Assembly: GCA_027451985.1 (NCBI GenBank)
Contig: DAIDHS010000003.1
Location: 56,532-117,854, forward strand
Direction of reading: 5' to 3'
DNA: 61,323 nucleotides
From: Elusimicrobiota bacterium
GTDB taxonomy: Bacteria; Elusimicrobiota; Elusimicrobia; UBA1565; UBA9628
The notes beneath the pieces were generated by a model, which was not told where the DNA came from, did no database searches, and saw nothing but the letters and a program-made list of their open reading frames with translations. Of the stretch, positions 19,794-27,540 are shown one piece after another; the stretch's first letter is position 1; every line of letters begins with the position of its first letter. A program made the position numbers and the translations under genes.

Positions 19794-19802
19794 ATTATAA
19801 CA
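19794..19802 (-). promoter_or_regulatory. Extended -10 before the M20 peptidase
   Basis: The minus strand reads TGT-TATAAT, a full extended -10 ending 9 bases before the ATG. This predicts a leader of 2-3 bases. Confidence 0.6.
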
Positions 19803-19856
19803 AATCGGGCAATACGCTCCGGTTCCGCGGCCCTTTGGATGTCCGGCGGGAAAAGA

Positions 19857-19862
19857 TAGAAT
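19857..19862 (+). promoter_or_regulatory. -10-like TAGAAT before lptF
   Basis: TAGAAT ends 8 bases before the ATG at 19871. It faces away from the M20 promoter, 54 bases from it. It would give a nearly leaderless lptF-lptG mRNA. Confidence 0.5.
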
Positions 19863-19870
19863 AGCCGGCA

Positions 19871-20956
19871 ATGGGGATTATGAGCCGCTACCTTGTCCGG
19901 CTGTTTTTGCCCGTCTTCTTCGCGGCGTTGGGCGTGTTTCTGGGCATCTTGCTGATGAACCAATTCCTGCGGCTCTTCGCCTTAGCCATGGCCAAGGGCA
20001 TCTCGATTTTCTGGATTCTCTCGTGCTTCGCACGGCTGCTGCCCTTCCTGCTGAGCCTGGCCATCCCCATGGCCTATGTGGTGGCCCTGTTTCTGGTGCT
20101 TGGCCAGCTCTCAGAGAACAGCGAAATTATGGCGCTGCGCGCCTGTGGCTTCTCCTTTCTGGAAACGACTTGGCCATTTTTGGCCACGGCCGTGGCGCTC
20201 TCGGGAATCCTTTTTTACCTTAACCACAAGGCCGGGCCGGACGGCTTCCACGCCTTCCGGGGGCAGTACGACAAAGCGGCGGCGCAGATTTCCCGCGTAG
20301 TCCTGGAGCCGGATTCCTTCGCCGCTGTGGGGCCTTGGCGGCTGCTGGCCAAGAGCGTCGACAGGCGAACGGGCGCCCTGCGCGGCGTTTATCTGGCGCA
20401 GGCCTCTGGCGCCAACGCCGGGCTTGAAATCCGGGCCAAGACGGGGCGCCTCTGGATCGACAAGGGCCGCGCCGTGCACCTGGAGCTTGACGACGGCATC
20501 CTTCAGCTGCCCAACCCCGACCCGGAAAAATACACGGCGGGACGCTTTGACTCGGACCGCATCGACATCCCGCTGGCCGCCGCGCCGCCGCCGCGCGAGC
20601 GAGACATTCCCGAAATTCCATCGGCCATGCTCCGGCGCCTCATCCGCGACCCCAAAACGTCGCCCCAGCACCACATAGAATACACCGTCGAGCTGGCCGT
20701 CCGAAGCGCCGCGGCGATGTCCCCGCTGATTTTCTTCTGGATCGCGGCGCCCATGGGCTTCGCCCTGGGGCGGCGCAGCCGAGCCGCCAACTTCGTCTTC
20801 AGCCTGGGCCTTCTCTTCGCCTACTACGGCCTCATCGCGCTCGGTATCGGCTTGGGCCGCCGGCACGGAAACCTCGCGGCTTTCGCGCCCTGGATGGCCG
20901 ATGCCGCCGGCGCGGCCCTGGGCGCGGGCATGACGCGCCGGGCCTTTAGGATATGA
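19871..20956 (+). CDS. lptF: LPS export permease LptF (YjgP/YjgQ family)
   Basis: The 361-residue protein has N-terminal membrane helices (SRYLVRLFLPVFFAALGVFLGIL and onward, to about residue 110). A periplasmic beta-jellyroll-like part (about 115-275) follows, and three C-terminal helices including FFWIAAPMGFALGRRSR. It belongs to the YjgP/YjgQ family, which with LptG and the ATPase LptB pulls LPS from the inner membrane towards LptC/LptA. Assignment as F rather than G rests on gene order. An ATG at 19880 is an alternative start. lptG overlaps its stop by ATGA. Confidence 0.88.
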   Translation: MGIMSRYLVRLFLPVFFAALGVFLGILLMNQFLRLFALAMAKGISIFWILSCFARLLPFLLSLAIPMAYVVALFLVLGQLSENSEIMALRACGFSFLETTWPFLATAVALSGILFYLNHKAGPDGFHAFRGQYDKAAAQISRVVLEPDSFAAVGPWRLLAKSVDRRTGALRGVYLAQASGANAGLEIRAKTGRLWIDKGRAVHLELDDGILQLPNPDPEKYTAGRFDSDRIDIPLAAAPPPRERDIPEIPSAMLRRLIRDPKTSPQHHIEYTVELAVRSAAAMSPLIFFWIAAPMGFALGRRSRAANFVFSLGLLFAYYGLIALGIGLGRRHGNLAAFAPWMADAAGAALGAGMTRRAFRI

Positions 20957-23366: not shown

Positions 23367-24209
23367 CTAAGGGGCCTTCTCCGGCTTGGCGCGGACCGAG
23401 CGCAGCGCGGAGAGCATGTCCAACGCGCCGCGGCCAAGGCTTTGCCCGCCATCCGAGACGATGACCTCTCCCGCGATGTTGCGGCCCAGGTCCGAGGCCA
23501 AAAACAACACCAGCGACGAAACGTCTTGTTCCGAGCCGAAGCGGTCCAAGGGAATGCTGGAAAGAACCTTGGCCCGCATCTCAGGCGTGGGCCAAAGATG
23601 CTCGCGCGTCTGCGGCACATCGATGGGTCCGGGCGCAATCGCGTTGACGAGCACCCCGCGCCTGGCCCATTCCGCTCCCAACGTGCGGGTCATGGCGACG
23701 ACTCCCGCCTTGGCCGCGGCCGAGGGAAGAAGCCCCGGCGCTCCCGTCCAGGCGTAGGCCGCCACGATGCTGACGATGCGGCCGCTTCCTTGCTCCAGCA
23801 TGCGCCGTCCGAACTCCAGGGAGCAGTAAAACGTCCCGTTCAAGACGATGTCCACGATTTTGCGCCAGCGCACGGGCGAAAGCGCCTCGGACGGGCGAAT
23901 GAAATTCGCCGCCGCATTGTTGATCAAAATGTCGACGCGGCCAAGGCGCTCCTGCGCCGCCGCGGCCAACGTCTTGACCTGCTTGTCGTCCGCGATGTCG
24001 CAAGCCAAGGGAAAAATCTCGCCCAGAGCGGAGAGTTCCCGCGCGGTCTCCTCCAGGCGCTCCAAGTTCCGAGAGGCGATGGCCACGCGCGCGCCGTGCC
24101 GGAGCATGTCCTCGGCCACGGCCCGGCCGATGCCCGTGCCGCCGCCGGTTACGACCGCGCCCTTGCCGGCGAGCAGATCCGAACGAAACGGAGAGGGCGT
24201 CACGGCCAC
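23367..24209 (-). CDS. SDR-family reductase, 2,4-dienoyl-CoA reductase-like
   Basis: The 280-residue protein starts with GTG and has the NADPH loop VVTGGGTGIGRAVAEDM, then INNAAANFIRPSEALSP and LPSAAAKAGVVAMTRTLGAEW. The normal catalytic Tyr of YxxxK is replaced by Ser163, with Lys167 kept. This substitution is the mark of the DECR1/PDCR-type 2,4-dienoyl-CoA reductases rather than ordinary 3-ketoacyl reductases. It would act on dienoyl-CoA intermediates in unsaturated fatty-acid breakdown. It overlaps the crotonase gene by 10 bases and follows it on the same strand, so the two are coupled. Confidence 0.82.
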   Translation of the reverse strand: MAVTPSPFRSDLLAGKGAVVTGGGTGIGRAVAEDMLRHGARVAIASRNLERLEETARELSALGEIFPLACDIADDKQVKTLAAAAQERLGRVDILINNAAANFIRPSEALSPVRWRKIVDIVLNGTFYCSLEFGRRMLEQGSGRIVSIVAAYAWTGAPGLLPSAAAKAGVVAMTRTLGAEWARRGVLVNAIAPGPIDVPQTREHLWPTPEMRAKVLSSIPLDRFGSEQDVSSLVLFLASDLGRNIAGEVIVSDGGQSLGRGALDMLSALRSVRAKPEKAP

Positions 24210-24982
24210 CGCGGCTTCCGTTTTTCCGTCATGGCGGAAATTCCTTCCTGCGCTTCGGCGCCCGAAAGAATCTCCTCCAGCTCCCGGCGGCCTTGGGCCC
24301 AGGCGGCGTCTTCATCCGCGCCCATCACGAGAGCCCGGCGGGCGCGCTTGATGGCGGCATAGGCCTTGGGCGCGGCGCCGGCGAGAGCCTTGGCCTCCCG
24401 GCGCGCGGCGAAATCAAAATCCGCCTCCGGAAAGACCTTGTCCGCGAGGCCTGCCGCGAGAGCCTCGGCGGCGTTCAAGGTCTTGGCCTTCAGGATTAAA
24501 TCGTTGACTAGCCCGGGCGAGGCGGAGAGCGCCGCCACTTGGCGCACAATGGGCGAGGTCGGCGAGATGCCTAGACGCAGCTCGGAGAGCGCGACGCGCC
24601 CGCGCTCCGCGCCCAACAGCCGCACGTCGCAGCCTAAAGCCAGGATGAAGCCTCCCAAAAGGGCCGCGCTGGGAATCGCCGCTATGACGGGCTTTGGACA
24701 TTCCGCCAAAGCCCGATGCGCCGCGACCATTGCGGCAAAGGATTCCAACTGGGCTCGAATGCCTCCTGCGGAAAATTCGCTTAATTCGAGGCCCGAGGAG
24801 AAATACTTGGGGACAGCGGAGCTCAAGATAACCGCCCGGATCGCCGCGTCCTGGCCGGCGGTTTTGGCCGCTTCCTTTATAAGACCCAGCAGCCTCTGAC
24901 TTAGGGCATTCGACGGCGGCCGGTTCATGCGGATTTCGCGTACGCCGTCCTGGTCTAAAATCTCAAGCTCGGATTGGGGCAC
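24200..24982 (-). CDS. Enoyl-CoA hydratase/isomerase (crotonase) family protein
   Basis: The 260-residue protein has the crotonase fold markers: a first oxyanion-hole segment [39 protein letters not shown] (second oxyanion-hole glycines), and the LSELRLGI stretch holding one of the two possible catalytic glutamates. It acts on enoyl-CoA thioesters by hydration or isomerisation. It starts with GTG at 24982, and a -10 TATAAT lies only 6 bases upstream. It pairs with the dienoyl-CoA-reductase-like gene downstream. I cannot tell hydratase from isomerase. Confidence 0.82.
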
Positions 24983-24988
24983 GCCTCG

Positions 24989-25002
24989 ATTATAGCTATA
25001 AT
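24989..25002. promoter_or_regulatory. Back-to-back divergent -10 boxes for the crotonase gene and leuS
   Basis: The 14-base perfect palindrome ATTATAGCTATAAT contains TATAAT facing left (24994-24989, ending 6 bases before the crotonase GTG) and TATAAT facing right (24997-25002, ending 12 bases before the leuS ATG). The boxes are separated by only 2 bases (GC), so the two polymerases cannot bind together. Neither side has room for a normal leader. Confidence 0.6.
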
Positions 25003-25014
25003 TCCTTAATCATC

Positions 25015-27540
25015 ATGAGCCTCGAGCGCATCCCCTGGCAGGACATCGCCGACAAGTGGCAGAAACGCTGGGAAGAAGCGGGGCTGTTCAAGGCGCCGCG
25101 CACGCCCAGGCCCGGCAGAAAATTCTACTGCCTCGACATGTTCCCCTACCCATCCGCGGACGGCCTGCACGTCGGGCACCCGGAGGGCTACACCGCCACG
25201 GACATCGTCTGCCGCTACAAGCGCATGCGCGGCTTTGACGTCCTCCACCCCATGGGCTGGGACGCCTTCGGACTCCCCGCCGAGAACTTCGCCATCGCCA
25301 CCGGCACGCACCCGGCCGAGATCACCCGCAAGAACGTTGCCAACTTCAAGCGTCAGATTAAAGCCCTGGGCTTCTCCTATGACTGGAGCCGGGAGATCAA
25401 CACCACCGATCCGGAGTACTACAAGTGCACCCAGTGGATTTTCCTGCGCCTGCTGCAAAAGGGCCTAGCTTACGAGGCCACCGCGCCCATCAACTGGTGT
25501 CCGTCGTGCCAGACGGGCTTGGCCAACGAGGAGGTCTTCGGCGGCAAGTGCGAGCGCTGCGGTTCGCAGGTTGAAAAGAAGAACCTGCGCCAATGGGTGT
25601 TGCGCATCACCGCCTATGCCGACCGGCTGGAAAAGGACTTGGCGGGACTGGACTGGCCGGCCTCGACTCTATCCATGCAGCGGCACTGGATTGGCCGCTC
25701 CGAAGGAGCGGAGGTGGACTTCGCGCTTGAATCCGGCGGCAAGGCCACGGTCTTCACTACCCGCCCCGACACCCTCTACGGCGCGACCTATCTGGCCCTG
25801 GCCCCGGAAAACCCGCTGGTCGCCTCGCTCAAAGTTCCGGCGGACAAGAAAGCCGCGGTCGCGGCTTACGTTGCGGCTACCAAGAACAAAACCGATTTGG
25901 AACGCACGGACTTGGCCAAGGAGAAGACAGGGGTCTTCACCGGGACCTTCGCAATTCATCCCTTGACCGGCGCCAAAATTCCGGTTTGGCTCGCGGATTA
26001 TGTTCTCCCCGGCTACGGATCGGGCGCGGTCATGGCCGTGCCAGCGCACGACGAACGCGACTGGGAGTTCGCCAAGAAATACGATTTGCCCGCGCCGCGC
26101 GTGGTGCGGCCCGCGGACGGCCCCTACCCCGAAGACGGCGCCTTTACGGACGACGGCGTGGCGGTCGATTCCCCCGCCATCGAAGGGCTAAAGACTCCGG
26201 AAGCCAAGCAGAAAATGGTCTCATTCCTTGAGGAGAAAAAGCTGGGCCGGCGCGCGGTGCACTACAAGCTGCGCGACTGGATTTTTTCCCGCCAGCGCTA
26301 CTGGGGCGAGCCCATTCCCGTCATTCATTGCCCAAAATGCGGCATGGTGCCCGTGCCCGAGAAGGACTTGCCCGTACTTCTGCCGGACGTGAAGGACTAC
26401 AAGCCCACCGGCACCGGGGAATCCCCGCTGGCCGCGGTCGAATCCTGGGCGAACACATCCTGCCCTAAGTGCGGCGGCCCCGCGCGCCGCGAGACCAACA
26501 CCATGCCGCAGTGGGCCGGCTCGTGCTGGTATTACCTGCGCTACCTCGATCCCCAAAACCAAGTTCTAGCCTGGGCTCCCGAGGTCGAAAAATCCTGGAT
26601 GCCGGTGGATCTCTATGTCGGCGGCGCGGAGCACGCCGTGCTGCACCTGCTCTACGCCCGATTCTGGCATAAGGCGCTCTACGATCTGGGCGCGGTCTCG
26701 ACCCCGGAGCCATTCCAAAAGCTGCGCCACCAGGGCATGATTTTGTCTTTCTCTTTCCGCGACTCGCGCGGCGTCTACCATGGTCACAACGAGGTTAAAT
26801 ACGGAGAGGACGGCGCGCCCGCCCTGTCCGCGACCGGCGAGGCGCTCGATTCTCAAATCGAGAAGATGTCCAAGTCCAAAAAAAACGTGGTCAACCCGGA
26901 CCAAGTCATCGCTGACTACGGCGCCGACGCCTTTCGGCTCTACGAAATGTTCATGGGGCCCTTCGAGCAGTCCAAGCCCTGGGACATGCGCAGCATCGAG
27001 GGCGTCTCGCGATTTTTGCGGAAAATCTGGATTTTGGTCTGGGACGCCTTGGAAAACCATCGCTTGGCGGACGGCGCCGGGCTGGCGCCTTTGCGGCACA
27101 AGACCGTCAAGAAAATCTCCGAGGACATCGAGTCCTTCGGCTTCAACACCGCGATTTCCGCGCTCATGATCTACGCCAACGAGATCCAAAAGCAGTCCGC
27201 CCTCGCCCGCGCGGACTTGGAAACGTTGCTCGCGCTCCTGCACCCCTTCGCTCCGCACCTGACCGAGGAGCTGTGGGAAAAGCTGGGGCATGAGCGCTGC
27301 CTGGCGCAGGAGTCCTGGCCCGCCTGGGACGAATCTCTTATGGCCGAGGAGAAAGTCGAGTACGCCGTGCAGGTCAATGGCAAGGTGCGGGCCAGCTTCG
27401 AGTTCGGGCGGGATGCGGGCGCTGAAGACGTTCGCCAGGCGGCCTTGGCGCTCGAAAAAATCCGCGAGGCCGTTTCGGGAAAGACCGTGGTCAAGGCCGT
27501 GGTGGTGCCCAACCGCCTGGTGAGCTTGGTCGTCAAATAG
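25015..27540 (+). CDS. leuS: Leucyl-tRNA synthetase
   Basis: The 841-residue class I synthetase has [19 protein letters not shown] (HIGH-like motif), zinc-binding clusters CPSCQTGL...CERCGSQ and CPKCGMVP, an editing domain (about 220-420) and KMSKSKKNV near residue 620. It charges tRNA-Leu and proofreads mischarged products. It is followed by the lptE-like and holA genes, the same order as leuS-lptE-holA in E. coli. The leader is too short for a T-box. Confidence 0.98.

Follow-up and report, generated by a model that had tools for sequence, protein, structure and literature searches.

The window analysed here is a stretch of 61,323 nucleotides from a member of the Elusimicrobiota. It contains a divergent gene pair, in which leuS is encoded on the plus strand and a crotonase gene on the minus strand, and the intergenic region between them comprises 32 bp (24983–25014). 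Within this spacer lies a perfect 14-bp palindrome, ATTATAGCTATAAT, which presents one TATAAT on each strand with GC between the two hexamers. Six bases separate the palindrome from the crotonase GTG at 24982, and 12 bases separate it from the leuS ATG at 25015. Direct reading thus confirms the arrangement described in the original prediction, including the distances to both start codons and the length of the spacer. The features of the locus are as follows.

24200–24982, minus strand: crotonase / enoyl-CoA hydratase family protein, 260 aa, GTG start (PF00378, 143.2 bits).
25015–27540, plus strand: leuS, leucine--tRNA ligase, 841 aa (TIGR00396, 1086.6 bits).
24989–25002, no strand: 14-bp perfect palindrome (direct reading, mismatch scans and genome searches).
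24997–25002, plus strand: -10 hexamer TATAAT of the putative leuS promoter; the preceding GC puts a G at -14 (reading and leuS matrix).
24989–24994, minus strand: -10 hexamer TATAAT of the putative crotonase promoter; on the plus strand it fills the leuS A/T block from -15 to -20 (reading and leuS matrix).
25009, plus strand: predicted start of the leuS transcript, 7 nt beyond the end of the -10 box, giving a 6-nt leader, ATCATC (from sequence).
24982, minus strand: predicted crotonase transcription start on the G of the GTG, leaderless (from sequence).
24974–24979, plus strand: weak -35-like TTGGGG at 17-bp spacing, within crotonase codons (by eye).

The G+C content around the site is about 64% (24001–27000), and exact TATAAT hexamers lying side by side are therefore rare in this region. 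The exact palindrome occurs once in its own 2.41-Mb genome, at the crotonase/leuS site; a zero-order model predicts 0.0046 occurrences of ATTATANNTATAAT in 2.41 Mb. It was found in two of 97 genomes (its own included), both of the same genus, compared to one of 97 for the reversed-pattern control. Conservation of the palindrome in relatives had been proposed as a check, and in G001, the one other genome of the genus that was searched, the spacer is identical at 32 of 32 positions. At fourfold degenerate sites the two genomes agree at 74 of 126 positions in the crotonase gene and at 205 of 253 in the compared part of leuS. Because identical runs longer than 32 bases exist within leuS itself, the identity of the spacer is suggestive but is no proof of constraint.

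Could the symmetry be accidental and the reverse hexamer unused? When three mismatches are allowed the window contains one match, and shuffled windows contain 0.21 on average, with at least one match in 19 of 100. The palindrome is unremarkable at this loose setting, and it is the exact form that is remarkable. The low expectation for that form, its occurrence within an unchanged spacer in the two genomes of the genus, and its functional spacing from two start codons together make chance symmetry very unlikely. Perfect dyad symmetry between divergent genes would also suit an operator at which a dimeric regulator controls both of them. However, the own genome holds no further copy at 0–1 mismatches, the two further copies at two mismatches equal the reversed control (2), and the back-to-back boxes of relatives keep their hexamers and vary in the middle bases. 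A regulator operator was rejected, as dispersed regulon copies at 0–1 mismatches are absent from the own genome, and we give this reading hardly any weight.

A simple sigma-70 scan that required at least four of six matches in each box did not report promoters at the palindrome, and by eye TTGACA is matched at no more than three of six positions at 16–18 bp on either side. A canonical sigma-70 promoter with a -35 box was rejected, since the scan found none. There is no Shine-Dalgarno sequence ahead of leuS, and the GAGG of the crotonase gene lies just 1 nt from its GTG. If a 7-nt spacing from -10 box to +1 is assumed, the predicted divergent starts at 25009 and 24982 are 27 bp apart. The 6 nt between the crotonase box and its start codon is the commonest spacing among relatives, unlike the 12 nt found at leuS, which counts against the explanation that we favor below. 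The predicted leuS +1 opens an in-frame ATC ATC ATG (the two ATC codons occupying 25009–25014); a 6-nt box spacing would put the leuS +1 on the first ATC.

We compared the leuS upstream regions of the clade, taken from 69 of the 97 genomes and from nine named records. With the duplicates L005 and L034 dropped, this gave 76 regions, in which L148, whose leuS is cut by a contig end, was scored as a miss. The comparison set consists of 72 leuS records not labelled Elusimicrobiota, some of them named 'bacterium' only, and L049 is present in both sets. A -10 box with at least five of six matches is located 2–16 nt from the start in 62 of the 76 clade regions, 48 with an exact TATAAT, and in nine of the 72 comparison records. 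The commonest distance from box to start codon is 6 nt (23 of 62), at which the +1 would coincide with the start codon's first base. Aligned on the box, the 62 promoters give the columns A-18 A-17 A-16 [T/A]-15 G-14 N TATAAT; A predominates from -18 to -16, 58 of the 62 promoters have T or A at -15 and 52 have G at -14, and the set shows neither a -35 signal nor a -35 consensus. The Shine-Dalgarno core is present in 10 of 76 clade leuS regions versus 48 of 72 comparison records. Judged from these sequences, leuS looks leaderless or nearly so across the clade. Moreover, 461 kb of the own genome contain 34 TATAATs close to the starts of long ORFs, and 21 of these sit 0–14 nt before an in-frame start, compared to five of 24 for the ATTATA control. 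By a crude test, a divergent ORF is found within 300 nt of leuS in 25 of the 76 regions.

In genus g5, the three loci examined have a leuS without a -10 box. A tRNA-Met gene lies about 7 nt before the leuS ATG in two of them (L114, ~1352–1435, in G005 and L032, ~2043–2124, in G013), so that 3' processing of the tRNA could give a leaderless leuS mRNA; in the third (L015) the tRNA-Met is about 80 nt before the ATG. A -10-like box 7–8 nt before the start is also seen in a few spirochaete leuS genes (L045, L047, L048 and L052).

Extended -10 promoters have a G at -14 and an A/T-rich spacer that replaces the -35 element, and their TG motif places a T at -15. The sequence at leuS is alike in its G at -14 and in having an A/T-rich spacer instead of a -35, but -15 is an A and the A/T block is the opposing -10 box. 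Many relatives have AAAAGC or AAATGN ahead of TATAAT; the genus of the window has ATTATAGC. In that sequence the reverse -10 takes up the A/T block while -14 remains a G, and symmetry extends this to the crotonase side, so that almost everything belonging to two extended -10 promoters can fit into 14 bp. With a scoring matrix built on 60 leuS promoters taken from other genomes, the two readings of the palindrome tie for the top two places among 122624 window positions; since the source regions were pre-selected for a -10, the ranking alone is informative. A different interpretation of these columns is that the palindrome drives leuS alone, with the reverse TATAAT representing the A/T-rich upstream block of the clade and the crotonase promoter or start lying elsewhere. 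Most relatives do carry A-rich sequence at -16 to -18, and by eye there is no clear box in the crotonase -35 region. Yet the block is a perfect TATAAT with a G at its own -14, lies at exactly 6 nt from the crotonase GTG and is also present in the second species, while the 32-bp intergenic region has no room for another promoter outside leuS. That leuS alone is served by the palindrome is thus unlikely.

Rather, the palindrome probably consists of two divergent, -35-poor housekeeping-sigma promoters placed back to back, each serving a leaderless or near-leaderless gene. The two divergent -10 elements that had been proposed here are well supported by the second species, by the clade-wide leuS box and by the two-sided recurrence described below. 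From this arrangement we infer the start sites, the two-way activity, its exclusivity and consequences, and the evolutionary order. Each promoter would be composed almost solely of an extended -10, that is, an A/T block, a G at -14 and TATAAT. The central GC would be common to both, and each hexamer would provide the A/T-rich -15 to -20 block of the other. RNA polymerase would bind in one orientation at a time, initiating near 25009 toward leuS, with a 6-nt leader, or near 24982 toward the crotonase gene, on the G of the GTG and leaderless. Neither mRNA would carry a usable Shine-Dalgarno site. The leuS promoter would be ancestral in the clade, and in the genus of the window its symmetric half would serve the divergent crotonase gene.

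Among the leuS loci examined, the crotonase gene is a neighbor of leuS in these two genus genomes only. Ten crotonase relatives from outside the genus share 42–51% identity with it. In four of them a box with four or five of six matches (GATAAT in one, TGCTATTTT in three) lies exactly 6 nt before a candidate start, and in the other six no box with at least four matches is present at the start. Some crotonase relatives may therefore be leaderless too, with weaker boxes, and the symmetric half would have been acquired next to leuS.

The back-to-back layout is found elsewhere. We counted the pattern ATTATA-N(0–14)-TATAAT, with both hexamers exact, in 42 genomes and found 83 pairs versus 54 for the reversed pattern; when the AT-rich genome G058 (36% G+C in its loci) was left out, the counts were 74 and 40. 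The convergent arrangement gave 48 (40 without G058), with 49 (34 without G058) for its own control. Counted per genome, pairs exceeded the reversed control in 25 genomes and fell below it in seven. Spacing of exactly 2 bp was seen at five sites in four of the 42 genomes (control, 2); neither box is close to a start codon at two of these sites, which are located in G001 and G002.

Start codons were assessed at a subset of the 83 sites (70 loci with 69 distinct sites, of which four with short flanks were dropped, leaving 65) and at 24 control loci (25 sites) drawn from the 54 reversed-control sites. A start was counted if it lay 4–14 nt beyond the box and opened an ORF of at least 100 codons, or 60 if the ORF ran off the locus. 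Of the 65 assessable pairs, from the own and related genomes, 17 have starts beyond both boxes, 23 beyond one and 25 beyond none, compared to 0, 2 and 23 for the 25 control sites (Fisher p=0.002, relatedness uncorrected). With the window shifted 34–44 nt away, the same 65 sites gave no double and 14 single cases. The distance from box to start is 6 nt in 24 of the 57 cases in pairs with starts. Double-sided sites make up 10 of 18 pairs with boxes 0–2 bp apart versus 7 of 47 at 3–14 bp (p=0.0017, relatedness uncorrected), and their intergenic regions span 24–39 bp.

The 17 double-sided sites correspond to 12 gene pairs, grouped by Pfam (a match was obtained for 16 of the 20 partner ORFs scanned) or else by N-terminal resemblance. 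They include leuS/crotonase, hemD-inositol monophosphatase/PTS EIIA (four genomes), arginine decarboxylase with a RibD or methyltransferase-like partner (three genomes), and nine single cases. Among 31 hemD loci examined, the PTS gene is present in 18, always in divergent orientation. The hemD/PTS EIIA boxes are 0–1 bp apart in five of five genomes of the search from genera g13 and g14, where the genes are separated by 24–26 bp; the flanking letters have diverged, and one box, in G053, is TACAAT. In g19 both boxes are exact and 21 bp apart, with 49 nt between the genes. At 12 other hemD/PTS loci the genes are at least 65 nt apart, and several have TAGAAT or TAAAAT 6–7 nt before hemD. Such a series is as would be expected of repeated shrinkage of the divergent intergenic region.

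Three genomes from genus g9 carry the fused ATTATATATAAT at arginine decarboxylase (L195, identified by Pfam; L252 and L253, by N-terminal resemblance). The divergent partner of arginine decarboxylase is RibD in G020 and is methyltransferase-like in G009 and apparently in G015; either one promoter has exchanged its partner or the assemblies produce the difference. The window itself contains a second divergent pair (19794–19862) with leuS-type -10 boxes of 18.2 bits (minus strand) and 17.7 bits (plus strand), located 9 and 8 nt before the starts, with the hexamers 57 bp apart; the plus-strand ORF, at 19871, is presumably LptF/LptG-like. Another divergent pair of the own genome (L163, G000:C4) has a 46-bp intergenic region, in which each ATG has a TATAAT before it, at 8 nt on one side and 9 nt on the other, with 17 bp between the hexamers. 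A crude longest-ORF gene caller missed the crotonase/leuS pair, probably through antisense ORFs, so the 51 divergent pairs that it returned are a sample only. In six of these 51, both starts have a leuS-type -10 scoring 8 bits or more; the hexamers are separated by 17–73 bp in five of the six and cross over in the remaining one.

We also counted pairs with boxes 0–2 bp apart across the phylum, in 284 genomes that are each at least 80% complete. The order of the window shows no excess of such pairs (18 versus 15 for the control, 45 genomes), and we therefore claim enrichment for the 0–14 bp spacing in the 42 genomes only; close pairs in this order are distinguished by the genes attached to them, not by their number. 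Excesses were seen in g44 (111 versus 53, 60 genomes) and g28 (86 versus 48, 15 genomes), and family f12, whose fetched loci have 45% G+C, is above control. Thirty loci were fetched in this search, and their 29 assessable sites comprise two double, seven single and 20 with neither start. Both double sites (L281 and L282) lie outside f12, in other families, and neither is in g44 or g28.

On balance, we lean somewhat toward a broader view, in which one Elusimicrobiota order would have recurrent minimal double promoters. These would be divergent leaderless pairs whose 24–39 bp intergenic regions consist of two -10 boxes and about 6 nt on each side. Boxes that nearly touch would act as each other's upstream element, the arrangement would arise repeatedly by intergenic shrinkage, and transcription would be mutually exclusive at the level of a single polymerase binding event.

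Bidirectional promoters as described by Warman and Grainger (PMC12825309, PMC10268837) share several properties with this site: owing to the symmetric -10, polymerase can bind in either orientation, binding in one orientation precludes the other, and the chromosomal distribution is biased to divergent intergenic regions. At the sequence level, the -10 symmetry at the palindrome is usable on both strands. That class, however, uses one shared -10, whereas two whole hexamers (24989–24994 and 24997–25002) lie side by side here, separate from one another and with overlap confined to their extended parts. Its definition, as given in PMC10268837, is starts 7–25 bp apart, with 18, 10 and 23 favored; here 27 bp separate the predicted starts, and little or no leader is expected for either gene. 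Leaderless genes with an adjacent -10 (Zheng 2011, PMC3160421; Zhong 2025, PMC12340547, on Deinococcus-Thermus) are similar in having a TATAAT-like box about 6–12 nt before the start and no Shine-Dalgarno sequence, but in the passages considered they are treated singly rather than as a divergent pair, and the words 'divergent' and 'bidirectional' are absent from the main text of PMC12340547. Their signature, TANNNT about 12 bp upstream of the start, is found for both of our genes, with the crotonase box at 6 nt and the leuS box at 12 nt, and neither gene has a usable Shine-Dalgarno sequence. Elusimicrobiota appear in the table of anti-Shine-Dalgarno types in PMC10783764, so that Shine-Dalgarno use in this phylum is on record. 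In the open-licence literature, searched by title and abstract opening, we found neither a description of leaderless back-to-back promoter pairs nor an Elusimicrobiota start-site map, which is no proof of their absence. Bidirectional promoters and leaderless -10 promoters are each known; their combination is new.

leuS should be well expressed in growing cells, and repression of the crotonase gene by leuS traffic is therefore a fair hypothesis, although no more than that. The original prediction held that the two promoters cannot be occupied together and that the genes should consequently compete for polymerase. The first part agrees with the steric limits that, according to PMC12825309, prevent simultaneous polymerase binding at bidirectional promoters. 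Competition between leuS and the crotonase gene is not established: in the same study, each of the five E. coli bidirectional promoters that were tested had a basal activity too low for competition, which was seen only when one direction was strongly activated. The present analysis goes beyond that prediction in that both transcripts are predicted to be leaderless or nearly so, leuS appears to be so clade-wide, and the layout recurs elsewhere.

If this reading is correct, about 14 bp would control two complete genes, since leaderless translation needs no leader, and the site would be near the smallest bidirectional promoter imaginable. It would then offer a clean natural test of competition between polymerases in opposite orientations, free of confounding by a -35 element or a leader. 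It would also suggest that leaderless expression is common in this group of Elusimicrobiota.
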